Part shown: positions 5,428-52,931 of the stretch, one piece after another | Position numbering within the stretch: the first letter of the stretch is position 1 | Layout of the letters: each line of letters starts with the position of its first letter | DNA from: Photobacterium phosphoreum | Lineage (GTDB): Bacteria > Pseudomonadota > Gammaproteobacteria > Enterobacterales > Vibrionaceae | DNA: 64,000 nucleotides | Assembly: GCF_002954725.1 (NCBI RefSeq) | Contig: NZ_MSCQ01000001.1 | Span: forward strand, 1,399,442-1,463,441 | Reading direction: 5' to 3' | Notes under the pieces: generated by a model | Told to the model about the DNA's origin: nothing | Databases searched by the model: none | What the model saw: the letters and a program-made list of their open reading frames with translations, nothing else | Program-made: the position numbers and the translations under genes

Positions 5428-5790
5428 ATGACAAAAAACTTACGCGTAAAATTACGACTTATTCTCTATACGCTACTCTTTCCGATAACAGCGTTCGCAA
5501 CAGAAGTGGTCGCTGAAACACAATTTTCACTAGGAAAGGAAAAGGCTATCGTGTGTATGACCTGTCATGGGGTTGACGGCATTTCCACAATCGATACCTA
5601 CCCCAATTTACAAGGGCAAAAGCAGGCCTATTTTATCGCAGCCCTTAAAGCCTATAAGTTGCGTCAGCGTAATGATGGGTTAGCTATTCTCATGCATGCC
5701 CAAGCTGATGTTCTGAGCGATAAAGACATGCAGGATATTGCATTTTATTTTAATCAAGTGAAGTCAACCCCTGTAAAAAGTGATGATTAA
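5428..5790 (+). CDS. Small periplasmic monohaem cytochrome c
   Basis: A 120-aa c-type cytochrome. A signal peptide covers about residues 1-29 (basic start, hydrophobic LILYTLLFPITAFA). The single haem site CMTCH is at 43-47, followed by GVDG, as in class I cytochromes of the c4/c5/c553 type. The segment GLAILMHAQ supplies a likely Met axial ligand. It lies 87 bases before ccoN on the same strand, so it is a plausible soluble electron donor for the oxidase encoded next. Confidence 0.86.
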   Translation: MTKNLRVKLRLILYTLLFPITAFATEVVAETQFSLGKEKAIVCMTCHGVDGISTIDTYPNLQGQKQAYFIAALKAYKLRQRNDGLAILMHAQADVLSDKDMQDIAFYFNQVKSTPVKSDD

Positions 5791-5820
5791 TATCAGCATT
5801 ATTGGTTGACATAAATAGGT

Positions 5821-5848
5821 GTGATTAGTTTTTTGATATCACTTTTTT
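5821..5848 (+). terminator. Weak stem-loop between cytochrome c and ccoN
   Basis: GTGAT/ATCAC arms around a 12-base loop, followed by T6. The stem is only five pairs. It may attenuate read-through rather than end the transcript. Confidence 0.3.
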
Positions 5849-5877
5849 GACCAATAACACAGTCAAAGGTTTTTGGA

Positions 5878-7299
5878 ATGGATATTCAATACAATTATAA
5901 AGTGGTTAAATACTTCATGGTCACCAGTGTTATTTGGGGACTCATCGCAATGACGATTGGAGTAATATTAGCCGGGCAACTTTATTGGCCAGCGCTGAAT
6001 TTAAACTCAGAATATTTTCAATTTGGTCGCTTACGTCCATTACACACCAATGGTGTTATTTTTGGCTTTGTGGTTAATATTCTAATGGGTACTTCTCTTT
6101 ATATTGTGCAACGCACCTGTAAAGTACCCTTGTTTAATCACAGTTTATCTTGGTTTGTTTATTATGGTTGGCAACTGGTATTAATACTGGCTGTGATCAC
6201 CCTTCCGCTTGGTTTTACCACCTCAAAAGAATATGCAGAACTTGAATGGCCAATTGATATTTTAATTGCGGTTATTTGGGTACTTTATGCCATTTTATTT
6301 TTTGGCACTATCGCTAAAAGAACGGTCTCCCATATCTTTGTCGCTAATTGGTTTTATGGCGCTTTTATTATCGTGATTGCGATGATTTTTATTGTCAATA
6401 ATCTTGAGTTACCGGTCACTTTTTGGAAGTCATACTCAATTTATTCCGGCGCGGAAGATGCAATCGTACAATGGTGGTGGGGCCATAATGCGGTCGGCTT
6501 TCTTCTTACCGCAGGTATTATCGGCATGAACTACTACTTCATTCCTAAAATATCTGAACGGCCTATTTATTCTTATCGCTTATCCGTGATTCATTTCTGG
6601 GGTTTAGTTGGCTTTTATACGTGGGCAGGAACACACCATCTTATTTATTCATCAGTGCCCGATTGGTTACAAAACCTTGGGATAGTTATGTCGTTGATTT
6701 TATGGTTGCCATCATGGGGTGGTGCGTTTAATAGCATTATGACCTTGCTCAACAATAAACCAAAACTCAAACATGATTATATTATGTGGTTCTTTTTCTC
6801 TGCCATCGTTTACTACGCTTTAGCCACTTTTGAAGGCCCTTTGCTGGCAATTCGATGGTTTAACATGATTGCCCACAACACTGATTGGATCATTGGGCAT
6901 GTACATTCAGCCGCGCTGGGTTGGGTTGGCATGTCAGCTATTGCGGTCTTTTATTACTTTATTCCGCGGCTTTGGGGCCACCAGCAATTATGGTCAAATC
7001 GCTTGGTTAAATGGCATTTTTGGTTTGCTCATATAGGCATTCTCATTTATGCCGTCGCCCTGTGGATTGCAGGTATTGGTCAAGGTTATATGTGGTTACA
7101 GCAAGAACCTAATGGCAGCTTAACCTATAGCTTTGTGGATGCGATGAATTTTTCTTCGCCATGGATGCTCGCGCGTTTCATTGGCGGTGTCAGCTTTGTG
7201 CTGGGTTTATTATTAATGATATATAACCTTTACCGCACGCTTAAACAGCCCTTAGCAGCAGTGTCCTCAACCGAGGAGGTCAATGACCATGCTAAATAA
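5878..7299 (+). CDS. ccoN: cbb3-type cytochrome oxidase subunit I (CcoN)
   Basis: Catalytic subunit of a C-family haem-copper oxidase that reduces O2 at the inner membrane. All expected metal ligands are present at positions shifted only by four from the Pseudomonas stutzeri enzyme: His56 and His343 (haem b), His203, His253 and His254 (CuB), His341 (haem b3). The cross-linked Tyr (Tyr247) and the Glu near the active site (Glu319) are also kept. It has about 12 hydrophobic segments and 473 aa, as is usual for CcoN. Its 3' end overlaps ccoO, and no ccoQ or ccoGHIS assembly genes lie in the cluster, so assembly would depend on factors encoded elsewhere. Confidence 0.95.
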   Translation: MDIQYNYKVVKYFMVTSVIWGLIAMTIGVILAGQLYWPALNLNSEYFQFGRLRPLHTNGVIFGFVVNILMGTSLYIVQRTCKVPLFNHSLSWFVYYGWQLVLILAVITLPLGFTTSKEYAELEWPIDILIAVIWVLYAILFFGTIAKRTVSHIFVANWFYGAFIIVIAMIFIVNNLELPVTFWKSYSIYSGAEDAIVQWWWGHNAVGFLLTAGIIGMNYYFIPKISERPIYSYRLSVIHFWGLVGFYTWAGTHHLIYSSVPDWLQNLGIVMSLILWLPSWGGAFNSIMTLLNNKPKLKHDYIMWFFFSAIVYYALATFEGPLLAIRWFNMIAHNTDWIIGHVHSAALGWVGMSAIAVFYYFIPRLWGHQQLWSNRLVKWHFWFAHIGILIYAVALWIAGIGQGYMWLQQEPNGSLTYSFVDAMNFSSPWMLARFIGGVSFVLGLLLMIYNLYRTLKQPLAAVSSTEEVNDHAK

Positions 7300-7897
7300 A
7301 GATTTCACGCAATCGGTGTTTATTCTCATTATTTCCACCGTTATTGTTGCCAGTTTTTCCTTTTTAGTTTGGGTATTACCGGCTTTTTTTTATCAAGATA
7401 AATTGATTGCGGAGTCGAGTGCAAAACCCCTCACCGCACTCGAAGTCGAAGGACGTGATATCTACATCAGTGAAGGTTGCCACACTTGCCATACAATGAT
7501 GGTGCGACCCTTAGATGCCGAAGTAAAGCGTTATGGCCGTTATAGCCGCGAAAGCGATGATATTTATGAGTTTCCAAACCTGTGGGGTTCTAAACGTACT
7601 GGTCCCGATCTCACTAATCTTGGGCGAAAATACTCTGATGAGTGGCATGCTATCCATCTTAATAATCCTCGCCATGTCGTACCCACATCAATTATGCCCG
7701 CTTACCCGTGGTTATTTGAACAAGTGCTTGATGGTGAAGATACAGAAGACAAACTCAAAGCATTACGCATGCTAGGCGTACCTTATAACGTTCGAGAAAT
7801 ACAACAAGCTCGTCTGGCAGTTAAAGGCAGCACCAAAGCCGAAGCACTGATTGCCTATTTACAAAGTTTGGGACAAGATCAGGGAATACAGCAATGA
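7289..7897 (+). CDS. ccoO: cbb3-type oxidase monohaem subunit II (CcoO)
   Basis: Membrane-anchored monohaem cytochrome c of the cbb3 oxidase; it passes electrons to CcoN. One N-terminal transmembrane helix (about residues 8-33) is followed by a periplasmic domain with the haem site CHTCH (64-68). Then come the CcoO hallmarks MMVRPLDAEVKRYGRYS, WGSKRTGPDLTNLG, YSDEWH and SIMPAYPWL, the last giving the Met ligand. I start it at the ATG at 7289 because the strong GGAGGT at 7275-7280 is eight bases upstream. An ATG at 7283 is only two bases from that site. Translation would be coupled to ccoN, whose stop lies inside this gene. Confidence 0.93.
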   Translation: MLNKDFTQSVFILIISTVIVASFSFLVWVLPAFFYQDKLIAESSAKPLTALEVEGRDIYISEGCHTCHTMMVRPLDAEVKRYGRYSRESDDIYEFPNLWGSKRTGPDLTNLGRKYSDEWHAIHLNNPRHVVPTSIMPAYPWLFEQVLDGEDTEDKLKALRMLGVPYNVREIQQARLAVKGSTKAEALIAYLQSLGQDQGIQQ

Positions 7898-10092
7898 ACA
7901 CTTTCTGGAGTAACTGGGTTATTGTATTAACCTTAGTCTTTCTGATTTTTATGCTTATCGTTGTCGTGTATTACTGGCGAAAAAATCATACTGCCGATAA
8001 AAATAAAACAGTTGATAGCTTTGATAATATTAAAGAAAATGATGCAGCAGTACCTAAATTGTTACTGTTTTCCTATTTTATCGCTTTTGTATTCGCGGCG
8101 GGCTTTTTCGTGCTTTATCCTGGTTTAGGTAATTGGCAAGGGCTGATGGACTGGAAATCAACCAGTGAAGCGACTCAACCTCACTCTACCGACTTAAAAA
8201 AGCAAATCGCCCAAGCGAAGCTAAGTGGAAGTTCATACCAACAACTCAGTCAAGATGCAACGATCGTCAGTGCTGGTGACGCACTGTTTCAAACCCATTG
8301 TGCAGCCTGTCATTTAAGTGAAGCTGAAGGCCAAACACATTTTCCTAATCTGTCTGATGATGTATGGCTTTATGGTGGTACTGATAAAGACATTCATTAT
8401 TCTATTACTAAAGGTCGAAATGGCGTAATGGCTGGTTGGAAAACCATTTTATCCGCCGAAGAGATTGATCATGTCGCTACCTATATTGCCTCTTTGCAAG
8501 CTGATCGTATTATTTCTGCTCCCGCTTTTGCATTACAACAAGGGAAAACGGTATTTAATAATAACTGCACCAGTTGCCATGGCAGTAATGCGCAAGGTAA
8601 TCAACTGCTCGGTGCACCCAATTTAGCCGATAATATCTGGCTTCATAATGGCAGCATTGAGGGTATTACTCATACCATTAATAATGGCTTAAATAACGTT
8701 ATGCCTGCGTTTGCCAACCAACTTTCAGATACTGAAATTCAAGCACTTGGCGCTTATATTCGCCATCAATATACCGTTCACGCCAATAAAGTCGCTCAAT
8801 TAGATAAAGCGTTAATCACTAAAGGCCAATATTTAGCCTATGCGGGTGATTGTGTTGCTTGCCATACCGGTGAAGGGGGGGAGTTATTTGGCGGAGGATT
8901 AGGCTTTGTCACACCGTTTGGCACCATGTATTCAACCAATATATCATCACACCCTGAATTTGGGATTGGCACTTACACCTATTCGGAGTTTTATGATGCG
9001 CTGCATAAAGGTAAGGGGAAACACGGCTATCTCTACCCTGCTATGCCTTACTCTTCTTATCAATATGTGACAGATGCTGACACGCAAGCATTATGGGCAT
9101 ACATGCAATCACTCAATTACGTTAACACCCGTAATCGTGACAATCAGATGATGTTTCCTAGTAATATTCGCTTAGGTTTACTCGGTTGGAACATCGCCTT
9201 TCTTAATACCGACCCACTTGAATATCCTGCTGATAGCACTGAATCTTGGCGTCGCGGTAAATATTTAACCATGGGACTAGGCCACTGCTCTGAATGTCAT
9301 ACTCCAAGAAATATTGCCCAAGCTTTAATTGCCGATAAACTGTTTCAAGGTAACTTAATTGATGGCTGGATGGCGCCTGATATTACCGCCACAGAGCTTT
9401 ATCAAGATCGCTGGAGTATTAGCTCACTGACTGATTTTCTAAAAACAGGTCATTCAGAAAAAGGGACTGCGTTTGGTGGCATGGCCGAAGTGGTAAAAAA
9501 CAGTACCCGCTATTTAACCCGTGAAGATGTCAGTGCTATTGCTGAATATCTCATTACTGGCGATAAATATAACGTCCTTGATAAATCTGTTGGACAACTC
9601 AATCCTCCCGGTTTTGGTGATTTAATTCCGGCACAAGTTAATGTTCAGAATCCTGATTTGAGCGAGTCATCAACCGTACCAACACCAGAAACACTAAAAC
9701 AAGAGCAACAACTTTATGGACTGTATATTCAAACATGTGGTGCTTGCCATGGTCCTGATGGTAAAGGTCGTGTAGGCATAGCTCCTACTCTGCTTAATAA
9801 CGGCATAATTATGCATAAAGACCCTTATGACACTATTGCTGTCACCATTCGTGGCCTTACCCCAAACTATTTAGAACAAGAAATAGATTTCATGCCAATG
9901 AGCAGCTTTAACACCGTATTAAATGATGCCGATTTAGCACAATTAATTACCTTTGTACGTCAGAAATTAGGCGGCAGAGACATTCCCGTCACAGAAGCTC
10001 AAGTCACCAAAATTCGTAAAGATCTTATCAAAGCGGGATTTGCTGGCAATATTCACAATCTGACTCAGCCTATGAATAATACCCCTGAATAA
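7894..10092 (+). CDS. Five-haem CcoP fused to a dehydrogenase-type tri-haem cytochrome
   Basis: A 732-aa protein with five CxxCH sites: 136-140, 225-229, 320-324, 465-469 and 615-619. Residues 1 to about 290 are a normal CcoP: two transmembrane helices, the linker LYPGLGNWQG, and two haem domains. From about 305 the sequence changes to the tri-haem cytochrome subunit of membrane alcohol/gluconate/aldehyde dehydrogenases (AdhB type): GDCVACHTG, FGTMYSTNIS, YPAMPYSSY, HCSECHTPRN, then the last haem with CGACHGPDGKG. Ordinary CcoP has about 300 aa and two haems. The gene overlaps ccoO by 4 bases (ATGA), so it belongs to the oxidase. No dehydrogenase catalytic subunit is encoded nearby. The fusion is read in one uninterrupted frame. 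Confidence 0.92.
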   Translation: MNTFWSNWVIVLTLVFLIFMLIVVVYYWRKNHTADKNKTVDSFDNIKENDAAVPKLLLFSYFIAFVFAAGFFVLYPGLGNWQGLMDWKSTSEATQPHSTDLKKQIAQAKLSGSSYQQLSQDATIVSAGDALFQTHCAACHLSEAEGQTHFPNLSDDVWLYGGTDKDIHYSITKGRNGVMAGWKTILSAEEIDHVATYIASLQADRIISAPAFALQQGKTVFNNNCTSCHGSNAQGNQLLGAPNLADNIWLHNGSIEGITHTINNGLNNVMPAFANQLSDTEIQALGAYIRHQYTVHANKVAQLDKALITKGQYLAYAGDCVACHTGEGGELFGGGLGFVTPFGTMYSTNISSHPEFGIGTYTYSEFYDALHKGKGKHGYLYPAMPYSSYQYVTDADTQALWAYMQSLNYVNTRNRDNQMMFPSNIRLGLLGWNIAFLNTDPLEYPADSTESWRRGKYLTMGLGHCSECHTPRNIAQALIADKLFQGNLIDGWMAPDITATELYQDRWSISSLTDFLKTGHSEKGTAFGGMAEVVKNSTRYLTREDVSAIAEYLITGDKYNVLDKSVGQLNPPGFGDLIPAQVNVQNPDLSESSTVPTPETLKQEQQLYGLYIQTCGACHGPDGKGRVGIAPTLLNNGIIMHKDPYDTIAVTIRGLTPNYLEQEIDFMPMSSFNTVLNDADLAQLITFVRQKLGGRDIPVTEAQVTKIRKDLIKAGFAGNIHNLTQPMNNTPE

Positions 10093-10243: not shown

Positions 10244-10420
10244 CCTTTGAGTAGAGGCGCGCTGCCTAAGAGTATTCGGTTGGAGGGAGATCCCCAATGA
10301 AAACCGAGGAAAGGAGTCAGCGCCGAAGTGATTATTGAGTCATCAATAGTCGCTGGTTTTGCATTTAAGAAATGCAAAACTGCCATAGTTATTTTTTGTC
10401 TATGGAGCGCTACCCTGAGG
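10244..10420 (+). ncRNA. Lysine riboswitch (L box) aptamer
   Basis: The conserved core is easy to read: GTAGAGGCGCG at the 5' side, AAGAGTA, a GGAGGGAGAT stretch, GAAAACCGAGGAAAGG, GCGCCGAAG, GTCGCTGG, and the closing GGAGCGCTACC. These match the five-helix lysine aptamer known from lysC leaders. CCTTTGAGTAG (10244-10254) can pair with CTACCCTGAGG (10410-10420) to form P1. It lies about 80 bases upstream of a NhaC-family transporter, a known L-box target in gammaproteobacteria. Confidence 0.93.
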
Positions 10421-10469: not shown

Positions 10470-10502
10470 GATCTCCACCTTATTATAGGTGTTTAAGAGA
10501 TC
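10470..10502 (+). promoter_or_regulatory. RBS-sequestering hairpin of the lysine riboswitch
   Basis: GATCTC-CACCT (10470-10480) pairs with AGGTG (10487-10491) and GAGATC (10497-10502), with a TATTAT loop and a TTTAA bulge. The 3' arm carries both possible Shine-Dalgarno elements and ends one base before the ATG at 10504. There is no T run, so control is probably at translation initiation. The hairpin also argues for the ATG at 10504 over the in-frame GTG at 10489, which lies inside its 3' arm. Confidence 0.75.
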
Positions 10503-20688: not shown

Positions 20689-21783
20689 CTATCGGAATCG
20701 ATAACTGGTTAAATAATGATAATGCTCATTGGGACGTAATATCGGATCATTATCCTGCCATTCAGGATGGTTCGGTGAATCAGGCAAAAACTGCGTTTCA
20801 AGCGCAAAACCACTGTGATCAGCGTACTCACCACCGATACGGTTAGGGCACCCTGCCAAATAATTCCCCGTATACAATTGCATTGCAGGCTTGGTGGTTA
20901 ATACATCCATCGTTAACGAGCCGTCAGTCGCGATCACGGTTGCACACGCTGTTGTTGCTCGACATACATCAGAGCGCAATACAAACGAGTGATCGTACCC
21001 TTTTGCTTGTTGCTGATCTGCATCGATTAACCAATCTTGATGAATCACTTTAGGCTGGCGGAAATCAAAGCTTGTTGCCTCAACCGCATTAAACTCACCC
21101 AATGGGATCCCTTGCTGATCTGTCGGTAAATAATGATCAGCGTTGATCGTTAACTGATGCGATAAACAATCATGCCCGCTATCAGCGCCTAACAAATTAA
21201 AATAACCATGATTGGTTAAATTAACAATTGTTGGCTTATCTGTTTCCGCACTGTAGCGAATCGTAAGTTCATTATTTTCAGTTAATGTATAGGTCACCAC
21301 AACCTGCAAGTTACCTGGAAAACCCATATCACCATCAGCAGATAACAACTTAAATTGCACTTCAGTAGCATTCAATTGCTGCATGTGCCAGCGACGTTTA
21401 TCAAACCCCGTTTCACCACCATGTAAACAGTTGCCATTTTGATTGGTCGATACTTGGTAATTCTCACCGTCTACATTAAATTTACCTGCCGCGATACGAT
21501 TAGCATAACGCCCAACCGTTGCGCCTAAATACGCCTGTTGCTGATAAAAATCATTCAGGGTACTTACCCCAAGCAATACTTCTCTGTATACGGTTTGGTG
21601 ATCCGCAGCAACTGGTACACAGCAGCTGAGCCACGTTGCGCCAATATCCATCAAGGTTACTGACATCCCATTTTGATTAACAATAGTAATCAACTTGGCA
21701 GGCAAACCATCCGTTGCCATATCAACAGTCATAGATTGATGTAACGCAATTGCATGTTGAGGTAGGTTATTTAACATACTCAA
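20689..21783 (-). CDS. galM: Galactose mutarotase (aldose 1-epimerase) GalM
   Basis: A 364-aa cytoplasmic enzyme interconverting beta- and alpha-D-galactose, the form used by GalK. Landmarks: GATVGRYANRIAAGKF, the catalytic His region VNLTNHGYFNL, and the catalytic Glu in GFALETQFLPDSPNHP. It is somewhat longer than E. coli GalM (346 aa). Last gene of a galT-galK-galM operon on the minus strand, 12 bases after galK. Confidence 0.93.
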   Translation of the reverse strand: MSMLNNLPQHAIALHQSMTVDMATDGLPAKLITIVNQNGMSVTLMDIGATWLSCCVPVAADHQTVYREVLLGVSTLNDFYQQQAYLGATVGRYANRIAAGKFNVDGENYQVSTNQNGNCLHGGETGFDKRRWHMQQLNATEVQFKLLSADGDMGFPGNLQVVVTYTLTENNELTIRYSAETDKPTIVNLTNHGYFNLLGADSGHDCLSHQLTINADHYLPTDQQGIPLGEFNAVEATSFDFRQPKVIHQDWLIDADQQQAKGYDHSFVLRSDVCRATTACATVIATDGSLTMDVLTTKPAMQLYTGNYLAGCPNRIGGEYADHSGFALETQFLPDSPNHPEWQDNDPILRPNEHYHYLTSYRFR

Positions 21784-21795
21784 TCGCCTTTTAAA

Positions 21796-22986
21796 TTACG
21801 CTTCAACCATAAGGTTTTCATTGATAACACCGGCACCCGCCATAGCTTTACACACATAAATAGTTGCTTGTAAGCCTGTTGCTGCCTGATATTTAGCATT
21901 CACTTCAGCGGTAATAGCGTCAACAAATGTCGGCGGTACTAGTGCCACAATACAGCCACCAAAACCACCGCCGGTCATACGTACGCCACCTTGATCGCCA
22001 ATAACACCTTTCACCATATCGACCAATGTATCAATTTCAGGAACGGTGATTTCAAAATCATCACGCATTGAAGCATGTGATTCAGCCATAAGCTCGGCAA
22101 GTACCGCCATGTTGCTATTACTCAAAGCAATGGCGGCAAGTTCAGTTCGCATATTTTCAGTGATCACATGACGCGCACGTTTAGCCACCATCACATCAAG
22201 CTCTGCTTCTCGCTCAGTAAACATGGCTAGTGTTACATCACGCAATGCCGGCACACCAAAGAAAGCTGCCGCTTGTTCACATTGTACGCGGCGAGTGTTG
22301 TATTCACTATCCACTAAACCACGTTTTTTATTAGAGTTAATGATCACCACTGCCATATCTTCAGGCATGGCAACAGCAGTTGTTACTAATGAACGGCAAT
22401 CAATCAGTAAAGCGTGGTTTTGTTCGCCTTCTGCCGAAATTAACTGATCCATGATGCCGCAATTACAACCGACAAATTGGTTCTCTGCTTGTTGACCATT
22501 AAGCGCTATCTCTTGCTGACTGATGCTAAGATCAAATAATGCTTTAAATGTTTGACCAATCACCACTTCAAGCGCAGCTGATGAACTTAAACCCGCACCT
22601 TGAGGAACATTGCCGCTAACAACAATGTCCGCACCACCCAACACATAACCACGATCTAATAAGCACTTAATCACACCACGGACATAATTAACCCACATGC
22701 ATTGTTGATCAAATTCAAGCGGCTGAGTGATATCAAACTGATTAACTTCATTGTCGTAATCAACCGCAACCACACGCACGATGTTATCGTCACGACGCGA
22801 AGCAGCGACTATGGCTTGATAATCAATCGCACAAGGAAGCACAAAACCATCGTTATAATCAGTATGCTCACCGATAAGATTTACACGCCCAGGTGCTTGA
22901 ATAATATGACTAGCTACATAGCCTAATACTGATGAAAAAACGGCAGATACGTTATCAATAAGGTGTTGAGTACGATTCGTTGTCAT
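21796..22986 (-). CDS. galK: Galactokinase GalK
   Basis: A 396-aa GHMP-family kinase that makes galactose-1-phosphate from alpha-D-galactose and ATP. The galactokinase signature [12 protein letters not shown] (33-44), the ATP-binding [12 protein letters not shown] (about 128-139), the catalytic Asp in CGIMDQ (Asp180), and the C-terminal [13 protein letters not shown] are all present. It is slightly longer than E. coli GalK (382 aa). Middle gene of galTKM; a 74-base gap separates it from galT. Confidence 0.95.
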
Positions 22987-23060
22987 TATTTTTACCTACT
23001 ATTACCAAGGGTTACCGTGTGGTAACGAAATTTATTAAATCAATAAAACCTATCTAGCGA

Positions 23061-24122
23061 TTAATCTAAATAGTGCACATCACTGACTGCGCGCAATTTT
23101 TCAGCGGCTTGTTCTGCGGTTAAATCGCGTTGACTTTCAGCCAGCATTTCATAGCCCACCATGAACTTTTTCACAGAAGCTGATCGCAGTAATGGTGGAT
23201 AAAACAGAGCATGAAGTTGCCAATGATCAGTCGAGGTGTCGCTAAAATTATTATCCGACTCAAAGAAAGGAGCGTAATGCCAGCCCATAGAATAAGGAAA
23301 TGAACACTTAAATAAATTATCGTAACGACTGGTCAGTTTTTTAATCGCTAACGCTAAATCATCACGTTGCGCAGATGTCAGTTCATCCATACGACGAATA
23401 TGGGTTTTAGGTAATAGCATGGTTTCAAAAGGCCACGCTGCCCAATAAGGCACCACCGCCAACCAATGCTCAGTTTCAACCACAGTACGAGAACCGTCTT
23501 CTAGCTCACTATTAACATAATCAACTAATAAGTTAGTGCCGTATTGCGCATAATATTCACGCAATAAGGTATCTTTACGGCTAATTTCATTGGGTAAAAA
23601 GTTATTCGCCCAAACTTGACCATGTGGATGTGGTTGTGAACAGCCCATCACTGAGCCTTTATTTTCAAACGCTTGCACCCAAACGTAATCTTGACCTAAC
23701 TCTTCTATTTGTTCATTCCATGTATCAACCACTTTACGAATAGCACCAACAGATAACTGCGGCAGTGTTTTACTGTGGTTAGGTGAGAAACAAATAACAC
23801 GGCTTAAACCACGCGCACTTTGGCAACGAAATAAAGGATTACTGTGTTCAGGCGCTGCGGGTGTATTCGCCGTTAACGCAGCATGATCGTTACTAAAAAT
23901 ATAAGTCCCCGTGTAATCAGGATTTTTATCACCAGAAACACGGGTATTGGTTGGGCATAAAAAACAAGAACCATCATAAGCAACATTTGATTCCGGTTGT
24001 GGCTGTTCATCAGCACCTTGCCACGGACGCTTAGCACGATGAGGAGAAACAAGTACCCACTGCCCTGTTAACGGATTATAACGACGATGAGGATGGTCAA
24101 TCGGATCAAAACATTCAGACAT
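23061..24122 (-). CDS. galT: Galactose-1-phosphate uridylyltransferase GalT
   Basis: A 353-aa Leloir enzyme that exchanges UDP between UDP-glucose and galactose-1-phosphate. Zinc ligands Cys53 and Cys56 (CFLC) and the active-site HPH at 165-167 (QPHPHGQ) match the E. coli enzyme, in which the second His is the nucleophile. It is the first gene of galT-galK-galM. galE, which usually heads the operon, is absent from this window and must be supplied from elsewhere. A GalR-type operator sits about 80 bases upstream. Confidence 0.95.
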
Positions 24123-24202
24123 AATAATTGTGCTCTTGTGATTCTGTAATGCTAAAAAGTCTAAATTGATTTTAGGTTTACTTCCGTGATCAATGACACG
24201 TT

Positions 24203-24218
24203 ATGTAAACGTTTCCAC
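24203..24218. promoter_or_regulatory. GalR/LacI-type operator before galT (galT-ebgR gap)
   Basis: ATGTAAACGTTTCCAC fits the GalR-family palindrome with central CG. It lies in the divergent gap between galT (start 24122) and ebgR (start 24467), nearer galT, so GalR probably represses galTKM here. Cross-control of ebgR is possible. Confidence 0.62.
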
Positions 24219-24385
24219 AAAAACAATAATTGGTGCCGATCCTCACAAATTAAGATCATCTTCATTGCTTATTTAAGCCCTATGGTTCAATACTTTTAAC
24301 GTATTTACACATTGCTTCCAATTTCAAGAATAAACATTCATTAACAAAAACTAAAGTATTCGAGTTTTTTACTAAATATAGATAG

Positions 24386-25444
<1,059 letters not shown>

Positions 25445-25467
25445 AATAACGCATTAATTTAAAACAT

Positions 25468-25498
25468 AAAAACGACATGAATGATGTCGTTTTTTTTG
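25468..25498 (+). terminator. Terminator after ebgR
   Basis: AAAAACGACAT/ATGTCGTTTTT stem with a GAATG loop and eight following T residues. It separates ebgR from ebgAC. Confidence 0.9.
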
Positions 25499-25637
25499 TA
25501 TTAAAAATATCAAACCTTTCAAAACAAGCGCGAGATCACTCAAATAAACCGCCGTGATTGTTTTTTTGTTGTCGACCTCACAAAGCTCAAAACAGAATGT
25601 GATCGAGTTAATACAAAAAAGTTTTACCTGTATTTTT

Positions 25638-25653
25638 TAGTAAAAGTTTACTT
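25638..25653. promoter_or_regulatory. Candidate EbgR operator before ebgA
   Basis: GTAAAAGTTTAC (25640-25651) has two 5-base arms, GTAAA and TTTAC, around two central bases. It lies about 45 bases before the ebgA start. It is the only LacI-like dyad I see in this gap. Confidence 0.4.
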
Positions 25654-25658
25654 AATAA

Positions 25659-29224
<3,566 letters not shown>

Positions 29225-31007: not shown

Positions 31008-34000
31008 ATGCGAAAAGCGCTAGGAACAGGTTTACTCTTCACTCTTTTATTACTGACTTTAACCGTAATAAGCGCTGTTACTTATAATCATCAAAATAAT
31101 GACGAAACAATCAATAAAATAAAAAACGAACAACGCCAGCAGCAGCATCAACAACAACAACACATTGCACAACAAATTAGTCATACGGTCTCTCACTTCA
31201 AACAGCTTGATTCCTATTTGAAACAACAGTCATGGCAACAAATACTAACACTCTCACAGCGTGATGATTTCATTAACTTTGCAAATAAAATATTCACTAA
31301 TAATACGACGTTAAATAGCATTAGTCTTATTGATTATAAAAATAGTTATCGCTTAAAGATTAGTACCGCAGTTAATAACAATATAACCGTTATAAACAAT
31401 AAAACGATCACTTCTATAACTGAATTAAATGATATTGATCACGCATTTTCACTGGCTGCCAATCAAACCTATATTAATGCGTCACCCCTGCCACTTAACT
31501 ATATTAATTATTATCAACACATTACTATTAATAACTATCAATGGGTTATAAAAATAGAACAGCAGAACCTACCACAGGTTCTCATTAATTTTTCAAATAG
31601 TGATTCCATATCACAACACTTTTGGATCATAAATAATAAAGGTCAAACTTTAATTAATACCGCTAAAAATAGCACATCTATGAATGATAACGACCACCGT
31701 TTTAAACGTCAGAATTTTTCATTGTGGCAACACATACAGCGTTATAATCATCATCAAATAATAAAAGAAAATAACCTTTATACCTATTCACCTCTTTTTA
31801 TTCCAACGAAATTAAAAGCAAGCGTTGATTTTAAATACGGTAATTTATCACCATGGGTATTGGTTTCAAAAGTTAACATTACAAATAATCACAGTATGTT
31901 AGCGTTTATTCAATACCCATTAAATCGATATTTTACTATTTTTATCTTAATCATTATTAGTGGTATTTTTTCACTACTCGCGTTTAGTTATATTAATCGT
32001 CAAAAAACTGAAATCAGTCGTATCAATAGTGTTAGAGACACAACACTTCATCGCTATTATTCTTTAATAGAAAACACCGATTCTGGCATTATTGTCATCA
32101 ATAACAAGCGTAAAATAACAGCGATAAATTCAGCTGCAATAACTATTTTAGATCTAAAAAAAGATGCTCTTCATAAAAACATCATTTCACATATCTCAGC
32201 AATTAATACAAAAATAGATATCGTTGCACTATTAAAAAATATTGATAATCTCGCTTTTAATGATAAGAAAAAAATGCAATTAAAAATCAACACACCTCCA
32301 TTTAAACATTTAGAAATAATTGCCACAAAGATTAATAATAACGATGATAACATCATGCTACATATAATAGATGTCACTTCATGGGTTAAACGTGAGCAAC
32401 AACTTAAAGGCTTATCACGGGCCGTCGAACAAAGCGAAGAAGCGGTTATTATTACTGATAGATTTGGAGTCATTGAGTATGTTAATAGTTCATATGAAAA
32501 AAGCACAGGAGAAAGTTCTAGTGAGATCATAGGGATAAACAGTAAAGCCATTTTTAAACGTTATACTGATGACACTGATAAAATAGATGACATTCAATCA
32601 AAATTGAATCAAGGTCAAACGATTCAACGTATTATTTCACAAAAAAATAATGATACTGTACATTATATTGATAATACCATTTCACCTATTCGCGATAAAA
32701 ATGACCGGATCAGTAATTATATATCAACCAGTAAAGACATTACTGATCGTATCAATTATGAAAATGAATTACATCACCTTGCTCATTATGATCAATTAAC
32801 GGCACTCCCTAACAGAAACATGTTTATTACTGAAGTAGATAAATCACTTTTAAACGCTAAAAAAAATCAGGCGAAGATGTCTATATTAGTGATCGAAATT
32901 GATTTATTTAAAAAATTGCATGATTCATTAGGAAATGACAAAACAGAAAAAATATTGGTTATTATATCAAAGCGTATTCGATCAAATTTAAGAGAAGTTA
33001 ATCTTCTATCTCGCTTGAATAACAATCAATTTGGTATAATTATTCAATCTGTTCAGCAATCAAACTGTATCAATACACTAGCAACACGGTTACTCAATAA
33101 TATTCATGCGCCAATTAGCTATGATGGCAAACTAATTTCAGTATCAGCCAGTATTGGTATTTCACTCCAAACAAAGACAACCACAACTGCTGAACAAATC
33201 ATTAAAAATGCTAATATCGCTTTAAGCTATTCAAAAGATAAAGCTAAAAATCAATATTGCTATTTTAGTCCAGAAATGGAAACAGAAACGACACACAAAT
33301 TAGAGCTAGAATCTGAACTGCGAAAATCAATTAATACGGATCGCTATGAGTTTTACTATCAACCGAAAGTATTAGCGCACTCACATGCACTAACTGGTGT
33401 TGAAGCATTATTACGCTGGCGTGATAAAAATGGCCACTATCAAGCCCCTGTTGATATTATTCCGCTACTTGAATCATCTGGATTAATCCTTGAGGCGGGT
33501 ATATTCCTGATTGAAAAAGCCTGCTGTCAGCTTAAACAGTGGCAACAACAAGGACTCTATATAAATATGGCGATCAATATTTCAGCCCAGCAACTGCTTG
33601 AATCCGATCTAACGACAATTTTAAAAAGTGCGATAAAAAAAGCAGATTGCAACCCAGCCTATCTAGAACTAGAAATCACCGAAAGTGTATTAATGACTAA
33701 TATAGAATTAGCCTATCAAAAACTGATCGACCTTAAAAAGATTGGTATTAAGATCGCCATCGACGATTTTGGCACAGGTTACTCCTCGCTTGCTTACCTA
33801 AGTCGCTTTCCTATTAACATTTTAAAAATAGATCGCGAGTTTGTAAAAGAATTACCCCATAACCAAGATAGCATCACAATCATTAAAGCAATTATTGATC
33901 TTGCCCACAATCTTGGCTTAACCGTTGTTGCTGAAGGTGTTGAAAACATTAAACAAGTTACTTTCCTTGAACAAATTGGGGTTGAAGAGTTCCAAGGCTT

Positions 34001-34085
34001 TTATTTCAACAAACCTCTAACTTGTAGTCATTTCAATCGTCAATATTTATATCAAAAACAACAAATCTCAGATAACACTCTATAA
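31008..34085 (+). CDS. Membrane PAS-GGDEF-EAL protein (likely c-di-GMP phosphodiesterase)
   Basis: A 1025-aa inner-membrane signalling protein. One TM helix (about 7-27), a large Asn- and Gln-rich periplasmic sensor region (about 28-305), a second TM (about 306-328), two PAS domains (about 345-460 and 465-590), a GGDEF domain (about 595-750) and an EAL domain (about 775-1015). The GGDEF signature is degenerate: NNNQF at 671-675 in place of GGDEF, so cyclase activity is not expected. The EAL domain keeps EALLRW (799-804), NISAQQL, ELEITES, IDDFGTGYSS, LKIDREF, VAEGVE and QGFYF, the set needed for phosphodiesterase activity. It probably degrades c-di-GMP, with the dead GGDEF acting as a GTP sensor. 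AAGGA precedes the ATG. Confidence 0.9.
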   Translation: MRKALGTGLLFTLLLLTLTVISAVTYNHQNNDETINKIKNEQRQQQHQQQQHIAQQISHTVSHFKQLDSYLKQQSWQQILTLSQRDDFINFANKIFTNNTTLNSISLIDYKNSYRLKISTAVNNNITVINNKTITSITELNDIDHAFSLAANQTYINASPLPLNYINYYQHITINNYQWVIKIEQQNLPQVLINFSNSDSISQHFWIINNKGQTLINTAKNSTSMNDNDHRFKRQNFSLWQHIQRYNHHQIIKENNLYTYSPLFIPTKLKASVDFKYGNLSPWVLVSKVNITNNHSMLAFIQYPLNRYFTIFILIIISGIFSLLAFSYINRQKTEISRINSVRDTTLHRYYSLIENTDSGIIVINNKRKITAINSAAITILDLKKDALHKNIISHISAINTKIDIVALLKNIDNLAFNDKKKMQLKINTPPFKHLEIIATKINNNDDNIMLHIIDVTSWVKREQQLKGLSRAVEQSEEAVIITDRFGVIEYVNSSYEKSTGESSSEIIGINSKAIFKRYTDDTDKIDDIQSKLNQGQTIQRIISQKNNDTVHYIDNTISPIRDKNDRISNYISTSKDITDRINYENELHHLAHYDQLTALPNRNMFITEVDKSLLNAKKNQAKMSILVIEIDLFKKLHDSLGNDKTEKILVIISKRIRSNLREVNLLSRLNNNQFGIIIQSVQQSNCINTLATRLLNNIHAPISYDGKLISVSASIGISLQTKTTTTAEQIIKNANIALSYSKDKAKNQYCYFSPEMETETTHKLELESELRKSINTDRYEFYYQPKVLAHSHALTGVEALLRWRDKNGHYQAPVDIIPLLESSGLILEAGIFLIEKACCQLKQWQQQGLYINMAINISAQQLLESDLTTILKSAIKKADCNPAYLELEITESVLMTNIELAYQKLIDLKKIGIKIAIDDFGTGYSSLAYLSRFPINILKIDREFVKELPHNQDSITIIKAIIDLAHNLGLTVVAEGVENIKQVTFLEQIGVEEFQGFYFNKPLTCSHFNRQYLYQKQQISDNTL

Positions 34086-49979: not shown

Positions 49980-52931
49980 CTATTGTACATCTAAAACCAT
50001 ATTCTGATTGCGCTCTTTGAGTATAGTAATTGCATCATCAATCGTCACTGCAGGGCTATAGTAGAATCCTTGAATATAATAACATGACATCTCAGATAAA
50101 ATATCTAATTGCGCTTGTGTTTCAACACCCTCAGCAACAACCTCAATCTTTAATTTCCGACTAAGATCGATAACCAATGACACCAACATTTGACTCTCTT
50201 TACTGTGTTCAATATCAACAACAAAGCTTCGATCAATCTTAATAAGATCGGGTTTAATATCAATAATGGCAGCTAACGATGAATAACCCGTACCAAAATC
50301 ATCTAATGAAATCGCAATACCACGAGATCTAAACGCCGAAAGAATATCAATAATGTTTTTACCGTCATCAAGAGCTGTTGATTCAGTAATTTCAATCATT
50401 ATCGCGCTATAAGGCAAGTTATAGTTATTGATTGTTTCAAAAATATATTCTTGATTATGTTGTGAAAACTCTTTCACTGAGTGGTTAATTGAAAAAACGA
50501 CATCGGTAAATCCACTGCGATGAATACGATCTAAATCAGCACACGCTTTTTCAAAGACTAATTGGCCTAACATACCAATTAAACCGTAACGTTCTGCAAT
50601 AGGAATAAAGATCCCAGGACAGATGAAGCCCTCTTGATCATCATACCAACGTGCTAATGCTTCAAATTTACACACTCTGCCCGTTTTATTATCAACAATC
50701 GGTTGATAGTAAACTTTTATTTTTTTAGTGTTGATCGCAGATTTTAATTTATCGCGTAATTTTAATTTACTAATATATTCATGCTGTAATTGTTGGTCAT
50801 ATACACAAACACCATTACGACCGAGCCATTTTTGTTCATACATCGCATAGTCAGCATTCTTAAGTAAAGCTTGGTGCGTAGTACCACTTTCAGGGTACGA
50901 TGATATACCGATGCTAATAGTTAAATTTATATCAATATCATTACATTTAATCGGCTGTGAAATAATATTCACTAATTGATTAGCAATACCTTGAGCATAA
51001 TTAATATCTTGCTCTTTAATTAACACCGCATATTCATCACCACCATAACGACAAATAACACTGTGCTCACACACTGTCTCTCTAAGAATAGTAGCCACTT
51101 TTTGTAACACTTTATCACCGAAATCATGCCCGTAAAGATCATTAAAAATCTTAAAGTCATCAAGATCAATAAATAAAAGTGAGCACACTGACGCCGGTGA
51201 ATTATCTGCTGATACATCATTAATTTGATCGATGTATTTTTCTACTTTTTCAATAAAACGGCGACGATTCATTAACCCCGTCAGGGTGTCATTATTTGCT
51301 AATAGTTTTAATTTCTTTTCAGTTTTCTTGCGAGAGCTAATATCATGAAAAACACCAACATAATTAATCACATTATGATCATCTTCAATTTTATTGATTG
51401 TCATCTCTTCTGGGTAAATGACACCGTCACTACGTCGATTATGCAACTGTCCTTGCCACGTCCCTTGTGTTTCAAGGCTACGCCACATTTTCTGATAAAA
51501 GGCTAAATCATGATAGCCTGATGCTAATATACGAGGGTTTTTACCAATAACATCATCATGACAATAGCCTGTTACTTTTTCAAAGGCTTTATTAACTGAA
51601 ATTATATTATTATCTTTATCGGTTATCACAATACATTCAGACGTATTATCGTAAACTGTTTTAGCAAGGGTTAATTGTTGTTCTGCCATTACGGTATCTG
51701 TTATATCAATTAAAATACCAACAACGCGGTTATAATGATGACTACTGCTAGATTCTATAATATTACCTTTACAATTAAACCAACGACAAATTTTATCATT
51801 GCTGCCTGATTGTAATCTAAATTCAACATCAATAGAGGTTACGTCACCATTACGTAAATTGGAAAAACATTTAATAACAGCAGATCGATCATTTTTATGA
51901 ATCATGATAATCCAATCATAAACACTATTAACATTAGTTTCATTTATACCTAAAATATCCCAAAACTTAGGTGATGTTAATAATATTTTTGTTTCTAAAT
52001 TATATTCCCATATACCTTCCGTAACGGCATTATATGTTACGCTTAATTTATCAGATGCTTGATCTAATTTATTTGAAAGATAATAAAATTCGGTAATGTC
52101 TTGTACAATACCTTTGACTAAGGTTGCAATGCCATTTATATCACGTAGTATATGACAATGTTCGCGTAAGTATTTATTTTTACCTTCGGCTAAAACAATT
52201 CGATAAATAACATTATAACTCATGCTATTGCTATCTAGCATATCACGTCTTAACTCAATAACTCGAGTACGATCATCAGGGTGAATATATTGATTCGTCG
52301 TTGTCTCGTTAGGCGTAAAACTCTCAGCCTCACATTGAAATATTCGATAGATTTCTTTACTCCAATAAGCACTACCCGTTACGATATCAACATGAAAATT
52401 ACCAAATTGAGCTTCTTGTTGACATTCTTCCATTTCACAAAGCAATTTTTTTTGCTCTGATAGCAATGCTAAATATTGCACATCAGAACCAAGAATATCA
52501 CCAAGAACTTGACACCATTCACCATGCTGTTCTTCAGAAAAAAAATAAGGATGTTCAAATAAGCATCCAATAACACCTACAATTTCTCCACGTCTAGAAA
52601 ATATAGGTATACCAAGATAATGTTGTAATAAATAAGGAGTAATTATCTGATTAAATGGATATGTATGTGGAATATTATTAGAAAAAAAATAAGGTTTTCC
52701 AGAAGATATCATCTTTTCACAAAGAGAGTTATTAATTAAATATGTGAATACAGGATTCGAAAAATGATCTTCAATAGAATAAGCTAAAGATGTCGCTTTA
52801 TGCTGATTTTTATCAAAGTAAGCAATATAACAATGTGCAGGCTGTAACGTTTCATACACAGTATGAAGTGCTTCTTGTATAAACTCACTACCATAACTGT
52901 TTCGTTTTAGTGCTTTTAATGTTGTAACCAT
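49980..52931 (-). CDS. Soluble GAF-PAS-GGDEF-EAL protein
   Basis: A 983-aa cytoplasmic c-di-GMP enzyme without membrane segments. Likely order: GAF (about 1-165), three PAS/PAC units (about 165-290, 290-410, 415-535), GGDEF (about 540-700) and EAL (about 715-970). Both catalytic signatures are intact: GGDEY at 630-634 in RYGGDEYAVL, and EAL at 757-759 in FEALARW, with ITESTALDD, SLDDFGTGYSS, LIKIDRSF and VAEGVET downstream. It could act as cyclase, phosphodiesterase, or switch between them through its sensors. AT-rich DNA surrounds it, and it appears monocistronic. Confidence 0.92.
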   Translation of the reverse strand: MVTTLKALKRNSYGSEFIQEALHTVYETLQPAHCYIAYFDKNQHKATSLAYSIEDHFSNPVFTYLINNSLCEKMISSGKPYFFSNNIPHTYPFNQIITPYLLQHYLGIPIFSRRGEIVGVIGCLFEHPYFFSEEQHGEWCQVLGDILGSDVQYLALLSEQKKLLCEMEECQQEAQFGNFHVDIVTGSAYWSKEIYRIFQCEAESFTPNETTTNQYIHPDDRTRVIELRRDMLDSNSMSYNVIYRIVLAEGKNKYLREHCHILRDINGIATLVKGIVQDITEFYYLSNKLDQASDKLSVTYNAVTEGIWEYNLETKILLTSPKFWDILGINETNVNSVYDWIIMIHKNDRSAVIKCFSNLRNGDVTSIDVEFRLQSGSNDKICRWFNCKGNIIESSSSHHYNRVVGILIDITDTVMAEQQLTLAKTVYDNTSECIVITDKDNNIISVNKAFEKVTGYCHDDVIGKNPRILASGYHDLAFYQKMWRSLETQGTWQGQLHNRRSDGVIYPEEMTINKIEDDHNVINYVGVFHDISSRKKTEKKLKLLANNDTLTGLMNRRRFIEKVEKYIDQINDVSADNSPASVCSLLFIDLDDFKIFNDLYGHDFGDKVLQKVATILRETVCEHSVICRYGGDEYAVLIKEQDINYAQGIANQLVNIISQPIKCNDIDINLTISIGISSYPESGTTHQALLKNADYAMYEQKWLGRNGVCVYDQQLQHEYISKLKLRDKLKSAINTKKIKVYYQPIVDNKTGRVCKFEALARWYDDQEGFICPGIFIPIAERYGLIGMLGQLVFEKACADLDRIHRSGFTDVVFSINHSVKEFSQHNQEYIFETINNYNLPYSAIMIEITESTALDDGKNIIDILSAFRSRGIAISLDDFGTGYSSLAAIIDIKPDLIKIDRSFVVDIEHSKESQMLVSLVIDLSRKLKIEVVAEGVETQAQLDILSEMSCYYIQGFYYSPAVTIDDAITILKERNQNMVLDVQ

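Follow-up and report, generated by a model that had tools for sequence, protein, structure and literature searches.

A 64,000-nucleotide stretch of the Photobacterium phosphoreum genome (contig NZ_MSCQ01000001.1, positions 1,399,442 to 1,463,441; hereafter, the window) carries a four-gene cassette for a cbb3-type oxidase, in which the CcoP subunit is fused to a tri-heme cytochrome of the AdhB type (Table 1). The gene coordinates given in a preliminary description of this DNA were all correct. The ccoN and ccoO genes overlapped by 17 bases and ccoO and ccoP by 4 bases, and, therefore, there was no space for ccoQ between these genes; 87 bases separated the end of the cytochrome c gene from the start of ccoN. 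CcoQ, which is encoded with the other subunits in cbb3-type oxidases, was not found in the cassette. CcoQ is dispensable in some species. A catalytic dehydrogenase subunit, dependent on pyrroloquinoline quinone (PQQ), on FAD (of the glucose-methanol-choline (GMC) type), or on molybdenum (Mo), was also not found in the cassette, either in the window or at the further loci described below, and no partner dehydrogenase was present among the 20 scanned of the 24 open reading frames (ORFs) of at least 250 amino acids (aa) listed for positions 16000-64000 (one of these 20 was GAPDH-like, and one had no match). The overlapping genes, ordinary CcoO, lack of ccoQ, and lack of a nearby dehydrogenase subunit had all been noted previously and were confirmed.

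Table 1. Genes of the oxidase cassette and parts of the fusion protein in the window.
Feature	Positions	Strand	Evidence
Mono-heme cytochrome c, c554/c4 type	5428-5790	+	120 aa, one CxxCH; PF00034 4e-7
CcoN, catalytic subunit of cbb3-type oxidase	5878-7299	+	TIGR00780 612 bits, over cut-off
CcoO, mono-heme subunit	7283-7897	+	FixO 1e-65
Five-heme CcoP::AdhB fusion, 732 aa	7894-10092	+	Profile matches and structure-database matches
CcoP part, residues 1-290	7894-8763	+	TIGR00782 at residues 35-290; 8snh_G, 3mk7_C
AdhB-type tri-heme part, residues 306-716	8809-10041	+	8hdd_B, 7w2j_C, 8gy2_B, 8gy3_A; tree

The five CxxCH motifs reported for the 732-aa protein were located at residues 136 and 225 (CcoP part) and at residues 320, 465, and 615 (AdhB-type part). 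When the whole protein was compared with the CcoP profile TIGR00782, the score was 225 bits (over the cut-off), and the match was restricted to residues 35-290, a region in which a pair of membrane helices was recognized by eye, along with two heme c domains; together with CcoO, this di-heme CcoP is the composition of a cbb3-type oxidase. Residues 285-709, on the other hand, matched the tri-heme cytochromes of dehydrogenases with solved structures: 8hdd_B (2e-61), 7w2j_C (8e-61), 8gy2_B (2e-58), and 8gy3_A (8e-51), from enzymes for glucose, fructose, alcohol, and aldehyde. Homology extended over the full length of all three heme c domains. The proposed division into CcoP (residues 1-290) and an AdhB-like remainder was thus upheld, as was the relationship of the C-terminal part to dehydrogenase cytochromes, which this domain search might have overturned.

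In an alignment of 32 fusion sequences (including that of the window, and leaving out the split sequence of genome G115; see below), all five CxxCH motifs were invariant, as were M179, M270, M384, M530, and M669, which were taken, by position, as the sixth heme ligands. In CcoN, which had 3mk7_A among its structural matches, H56, H203, H253, H254, H341, H343, and Y247 were identical in all 33 rows (that of G115 lacking its first part). We presume, from the numbering of the P. stutzeri enzyme after correction for the offset, that these residues correspond to the heme b, heme b3, and CuB ligands and to the cross-linked Tyr, in agreement with the earlier statement that CcoN has every heme and CuB ligand. 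The mean p-distances among the 32 intact fusions were 0.27, 0.31, and 0.34 for the tri-heme domains and 0.38 for the CcoP heme part; the tri-heme part is more conserved than the CcoP heme part and is under strong constraint.

The architecture was mapped over 150 Vibrionaceae genomes, drawn evenly. The fusion was present in 48 of them (referred to as carriers), in one frame in 47 and split in G115, and a fusion-type ccoN with 75-100% identity was found in the same 48. The order of cytochrome c, ccoN, ccoO, and ccoP::adhB, including the small cytochrome c gene in front that had been described for the window, was kept at all 32 further loci, and the neighbors of the cassette varied between lineages. 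Since one intact five-heme ORF recurred at 31 of these 32 loci, the fusion cannot be attributed to chance or to an assembly error. The 32nd locus (L057, 5594-10219, in G115) consisted of two overlapping frames: frame breaks were found in ccoN (a stop) and ccoP, and a ccoG match elsewhere in this genome also contained a stop. The state of this cassette reflects either decay or poor sequence.

No fusion was detected among 368 genomes from elsewhere in the class (E<=1e-110), or outside the family in a draw from the phylum (0/388; E<=1e-95, with scoring restricted to the best two or three candidates of each genome); these thresholds were strict, and weaker or independent fusions outside Vibrionaceae could escape them. 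In a plasmid collection, two of the 961 matching records, both from Vibrio, reached a query coverage of 80% or more. The best named relatives (86-92%) were from Photobacterium malacitanum, P. kishitanii, P. aquimaris, P. piscicola, and P. iliopiscarium, which we take to be the phosphoreum group, followed by P. angustum, P. lucens, and other species at 71-73%. In a 50-row tree, the fused tri-heme parts formed one clade (support 100/100), which adjoined the AdhB proteins of Vibrionaceae Mo-dehydrogenases; the branches of this tree were long, and just six further rows were included. A single fusion event is likely, judging from these sequences, and the source family of the fused module is less sure.

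The host genome (4.55 Mb, five contigs) contained no other cbb3-type ccoN, and the cassette is its sole cbb3 oxidase. A comparison with the standard ccoNOQP of this genome, which the preliminary description had presupposed, therefore had no partner, and this absence is an addition to that account. One AdhB paralogue, 42% identical to the fused module, belonged to an operon that resembles those of Mo aldehyde dehydrogenases and is situated on another contig (L004, 7777-12415), and a di-heme cytochrome was read as c4 by eye. The possibility that the cassette is the only cytochrome c oxidase of the genome was rejected because a caa3-type CtaC/CtaD/CtaG set (by eye) was found at another locus (L016). 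The Rieske protein of the cytochrome bc1 complex was over the cut-off in 149 of the 150 Vibrionaceae genomes and in all 48 carriers, including the host; the idea that carriers lack bc1 and that the tri-heme arm replaces it was rejected on this ground.

No further ccoN match at 1e-60 was found in 13 of the 48 carriers. CcoG gave no match over the cut-off in 11 of these 13, whose sole ccoN at this threshold is of the fusion type (G000, G042, G056, G095, G103, G107, G109, G117, G119, G123, and G127), and was over the cut-off in all 35 carriers with an additional ccoN. If the fusion oxidase is active in those 11 carriers, maturation would proceed without CcoG. The retention of the cassette where standard ccoN and a CcoG match over the cut-off are both absent, in which it differs from CcoNOQP, provides a test of the assembly factors needed by a cbb3 oxidase. 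Separately, three genomes of the same genus as the window (G068, G082, and G087) had a Mo aldehyde dehydrogenase, but neither ccoN at 1e-60 nor CcoG over the cut-off.

According to the portions of PMC9171043 consulted, cytochromes of the AdhB type work with dehydrogenases of three classes: PQQ, FAD-GMC, and Mo. The preliminary description had proposed that the fusion wires a periplasmic dehydrogenase directly to the terminal oxidase, and had suggested a search for a conserved unlinked GMC, PQQ, or Mo enzyme. PQQ alcohol dehydrogenase was over the cut-off in 17 of the 150 Vibrionaceae genomes, none of them a carrier; in the carriers G011, G030, and G077, frames of ~790-797 aa gave matches below the cut-off (141-164 bits) and may encode a different PQQ enzyme, perhaps membrane glucose dehydrogenase. 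The small subunit of gluconate dehydrogenase (PF13618) was found in none of the 150 genomes. A GMC oxidoreductase of any kind was present in 33 carriers and absent from 15, including the host; a motif check of 10 GMC loci revealed a single 129-aa frame with CxxCH, on the minus strand of L119, and did not reveal a Tat small subunit. A Mo aldehyde dehydrogenase of the host's family (E<=1e-40) was present in 13 of the 150 genomes, with eight carriers possessing it and 40 lacking it, and was accompanied by its own AdhB at all 12 loci examined. Among the classes searched, the host genome had only this Mo enzyme, with its own AdhB. Ten of the 48 carriers (G103, G042, G093, G125, G029, G049, G061, G122, G128, and G035) had neither GMC, PQQ alcohol dehydrogenase over the cut-off, PF13618, nor the Mo enzyme, in a search that did not extend to distant Mo-hydroxylases or the fructose/sorbitol-type small subunit. 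Since no searched class was constant and ten carriers had none, a dedicated canonical dehydrogenase does not look like the rule as the general partner of the arm, and, judging from gene content, the usual dehydrogenases searched are ruled out as its partner in several species. Of the wiring proposed earlier, the fusion of CcoP to a conserved AdhB-type cytochrome stood, while the constant unlinked GMC, PQQ, or Mo dehydrogenase that it called for did not emerge.

A periplasmic dehydrogenase may dock on the arm and pass electrons straight to the oxidase, this being the Mo aldehyde dehydrogenase or, elsewhere, a class outside those searched. Homology of the module with dehydrogenase cytochromes over its whole length, the position of the Vibrionaceae Mo-dehydrogenase AdhBs as neighbors in the tree (with long branches and few outside rows), and the conservation of the docking domain with the third heme (3c) are consistent with this explanation. 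Moreover, the Mo enzyme was more common in carriers than in non-carriers (8/48 vs 5/102; Fisher p 0.027, not corrected for kinship), and in G129 (L058, 7411-17098), the Mo operon, with its own AdhB, adjoins the cassette divergently. However, this was the sole such case among the loci and one of eight carriers having both, the Mo enzyme already has an AdhB of its own, and no canonical partner was constant. We consider this explanation doubtful overall, although the Mo association (uncorrected) and the G129 adjacency keep it viable for some species. On two plasmids, a tri-heme AdhB forms the C-terminus of another protein: one annotated as molybdopterin-binding in Azospirillum (L102, 3457-7149) and a 781-aa ORF in Pseudomonas (L103, 4816-7161). 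In these, it seems from the sequences that the AdhB module is fused to a dehydrogenase rather than an oxidase.

The arm could also make the enzyme a direct quinol oxidase, whose quinone-reactive region oxidizes ubiquinol and reduces CcoP without any need for bc1. Ubiquinol oxidation is carried out by the alcohol dehydrogenase (ADH) of Gluconobacter, and the lack of canonical dehydrogenases in many carriers would leave quinone as a known partner of the module. In the sections of PMC9171043 available, dehydrogenases with this tri-heme subunit use ubiquinone as the acceptor, and the ADH complex has a high-affinity ubiquinone site in addition to a ubiquinone oxidation-reduction site; the bypass of quinol suggested in the preliminary description is, therefore, unsupported. 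The segment connecting the first and second heme domains (1c and 2c; residues 414-436) was conserved in the fusions and partly common with dehydrogenase cytochromes. On the other hand, the Rieske protein of bc1 was retained in all carriers, the high conservation of domain 3c is left unexplained, and the C-terminal tail counted from the third CxxCH of the tri-heme part was 118 and 123 residues in two fusions vs ~140 in the ADH and fructose dehydrogenase (FDH) cytochromes of acetic acid bacteria (the tail of the Vibrionaceae Mo-AdhB, 100-106 residues, was shorter than those of the fusions). A residue-level description of the quinone site in these cytochromes was not found in the literature examined. 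Overall, we regard direct quinol oxidation as unlikely. The same applies to the broader combination of a cbb3 oxidase turned quinol oxidase through capture of a dehydrogenase cytochrome, with the AdhB arm fed by ubiquinol or another non-cytochrome donor, respiration without bc1, and full replacement of the standard cbb3 enzyme, without CcoG, in part of Photobacterium. With this fusion, whether a terminal oxidase can be fed directly, without bc1, becomes testable in marine bacteria that are easy to grow.

In the glucose dehydrogenase of B. cepacia, docking to the catalytic subunit and to the small subunit takes place through the third-heme domain, whose heme is 7-8 A from the iron-sulfur cluster (PMC9727119, in excerpt). 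The mean pairwise identity of this domain was 64% among nine diverse fusions, 39% among five diverse Mo-dehydrogenase cytochromes, and 34% among four GMC cytochromes, vs 72%, 60%, and 55%, respectively, for the heme-1c domain; these sets differ in overall divergence, and the 3c comparison is one of ratios. Among the positions equivalent to the contacts, 614, 620, 626, 629, and 668 were invariant in the 32 fusions, and 617 and 666 were nearly so (31/32 and 30/32). The residues at 614, 626, and 668 were uncommon in a set of 16 dehydrogenase cytochromes (no more than 10%). We read this as a heme-3c face that has been kept and re-specialized for a constant protein partner.

The explanation that we tentatively favor, although with limited confidence, is that the arm is an electron input and that its constant protein partner is, most likely, a cytochrome of the c type. 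The cassette would encode a cbb3-type O2 reductase, which we infer to be enzymatically active, with a CcoP bearing a covalent tri-heme electron arm. Electrons would enter at the C-terminal heme domain 3c of the periplasmic arm, probably by docking of the donor there, and may then pass through 2c and 1c to the CcoP hemes, CcoO, CcoN, and O2. The first candidate for the donor is the c554/c4-like cytochrome of the cassette itself, rather than a dedicated dehydrogenase. By eye, this protein begins with a signal-like segment, and its best solved relatives were c554 (2zzs, 1e-22), c552, and c4; entries 8smr and 8snh, which contain cbb3 subunits, also include the c4 sequence 6q2u. It is favored as the donor because its gene was the only other one present at all loci examined, which is circumstantial. 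The inconstancy of every dehydrogenase class searched is also in favor of this explanation, and the Rieske protein in all carriers makes a reduced cytochrome c pool likely. Parallels for the joining of CcoP to a donor-type cytochrome are provided by the c5 domain of Neisseria and the c4-like domains of a sister cassette in G110 (see below).

Several observations weigh against this cytochrome-fed arm. Invariance was not significantly enriched at the contact positions relative to the rest of the domain (5/11 vs 37/105, p 0.52), and the correlation of cytochrome c distances with those of each domain indicated no docking site: they tracked the CcoP heme part slightly more closely than 3c (partial r 0.441 vs 0.385). 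The cytochrome c of the cassette may simply feed CcoP, and three extra hemes are superfluous for a c4-type donor. Structure prediction was also of no assistance, because the mean predicted local distance difference test (pLDDT) scores of 36.0 (protein alone) and 38.5 (with an 11-sequence alignment) were too poor for a fold search. The sequences upstream of the cassette at 33 loci were uninformative: there was no match to an FNR or ArcA-like box, and a relaxed CRP pattern was found at 2 of the 33.

In the parts of PMC2924362 examined, the tri-heme CcoP of Neisseria similarly has a cytochrome domain fused to its C-terminus, but this extension contains a single c5-type heme, occurs in another taxon, and is proposed to route electrons to nitrite reductase. 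The protein in the window does not belong to this type, as its extension is the tri-heme AdhB. The Neisseria enzyme is the direct precedent for a further explanation, in which bc1 reduces CcoP as usual and the arm is an outlet to another periplasmic acceptor. Relatives of AdhB, however, take up electrons from their partners at heme 3c (PMC9727119, in the portion seen), and no acceptor gene traveled with the cassette at the loci examined, so that we consider an outlet improbable.

The G110 sister cassette (L065, 15697-19166) contains CcoN, CcoO, and a four-heme CcoP, and its CcoN represents the nearest CcoN lineage in the 150 genomes (65-67% identical). Its CcoP is also fused to cytochrome domains; however, these are two c4-like heme domains (by eye and by BLAST to the cytochrome c of the cassette) without AdhB, and the region in front lacks a gene related to the cytochrome c of the fusion cassette. 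The corresponding cassette in G011 (L101, 4635-8103) has its CcoP in two frames. In excerpts of PMC7876108, engineered cytochrome c1-CcoP-cy fusions of Rhodobacter capsulatus likewise have a carrier tethered to the C-terminus of CcoP and function in vivo, but they are man-made, with a mono-heme cy domain.

The cassette resembles the cbb3-type oxidase CcoNOQP in CcoN, CcoO, and the di-heme CcoP part with conserved ligand residues, and differs from it in the missing ccoQ between ccoO and ccoP, the tri-heme AdhB extension, and the cytochrome c gene of its own in front. The extension shares three heme c domains with the AdhB-type cytochromes of glucose, fructose, gluconate, alcohol, and Mo aldehyde dehydrogenases, but is joined to CcoP, has no start or catalytic subunit of its own, and possesses its own invariant residues. 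Although the preliminary description had allowed for a five-heme CcoP as an already known subtype, neither an AdhB-fused nor a five-heme CcoP was described in the open-access literature searched (subscription papers being mostly outside this search), in which the only fused CcoPs were those of Neisseria and Rhodobacter; the parts seen of PMC10715153, PMC6692554, and PMC3669370 do not mention an AdhB-fused CcoP. The CcoP::AdhB cassette is a real and conserved architecture, apparently undescribed, and a variant of the cbb3 oxidase. It represents a naturally evolved and widely retained joint of two respiratory modules that are normally apart, carried by some marine species of Photobacterium and Vibrio, and, together with the c5 domain of Neisseria and the c4-like domains of the sister cassette, suggests that the C-terminus of CcoP is a socket for electron-carrier modules.

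Elsewhere in the window, a lysine riboswitch (RF00168, 141 bits) at 10244-10420 precedes a transporter gene starting near 10489, which was read as NhaC-like, and this arrangement was read as ordinary. Galactose genes with LacZ (20689-28772) and two large PAS-GGDEF-EAL proteins (31008-34085 and 49980-52931) were also ordinary.

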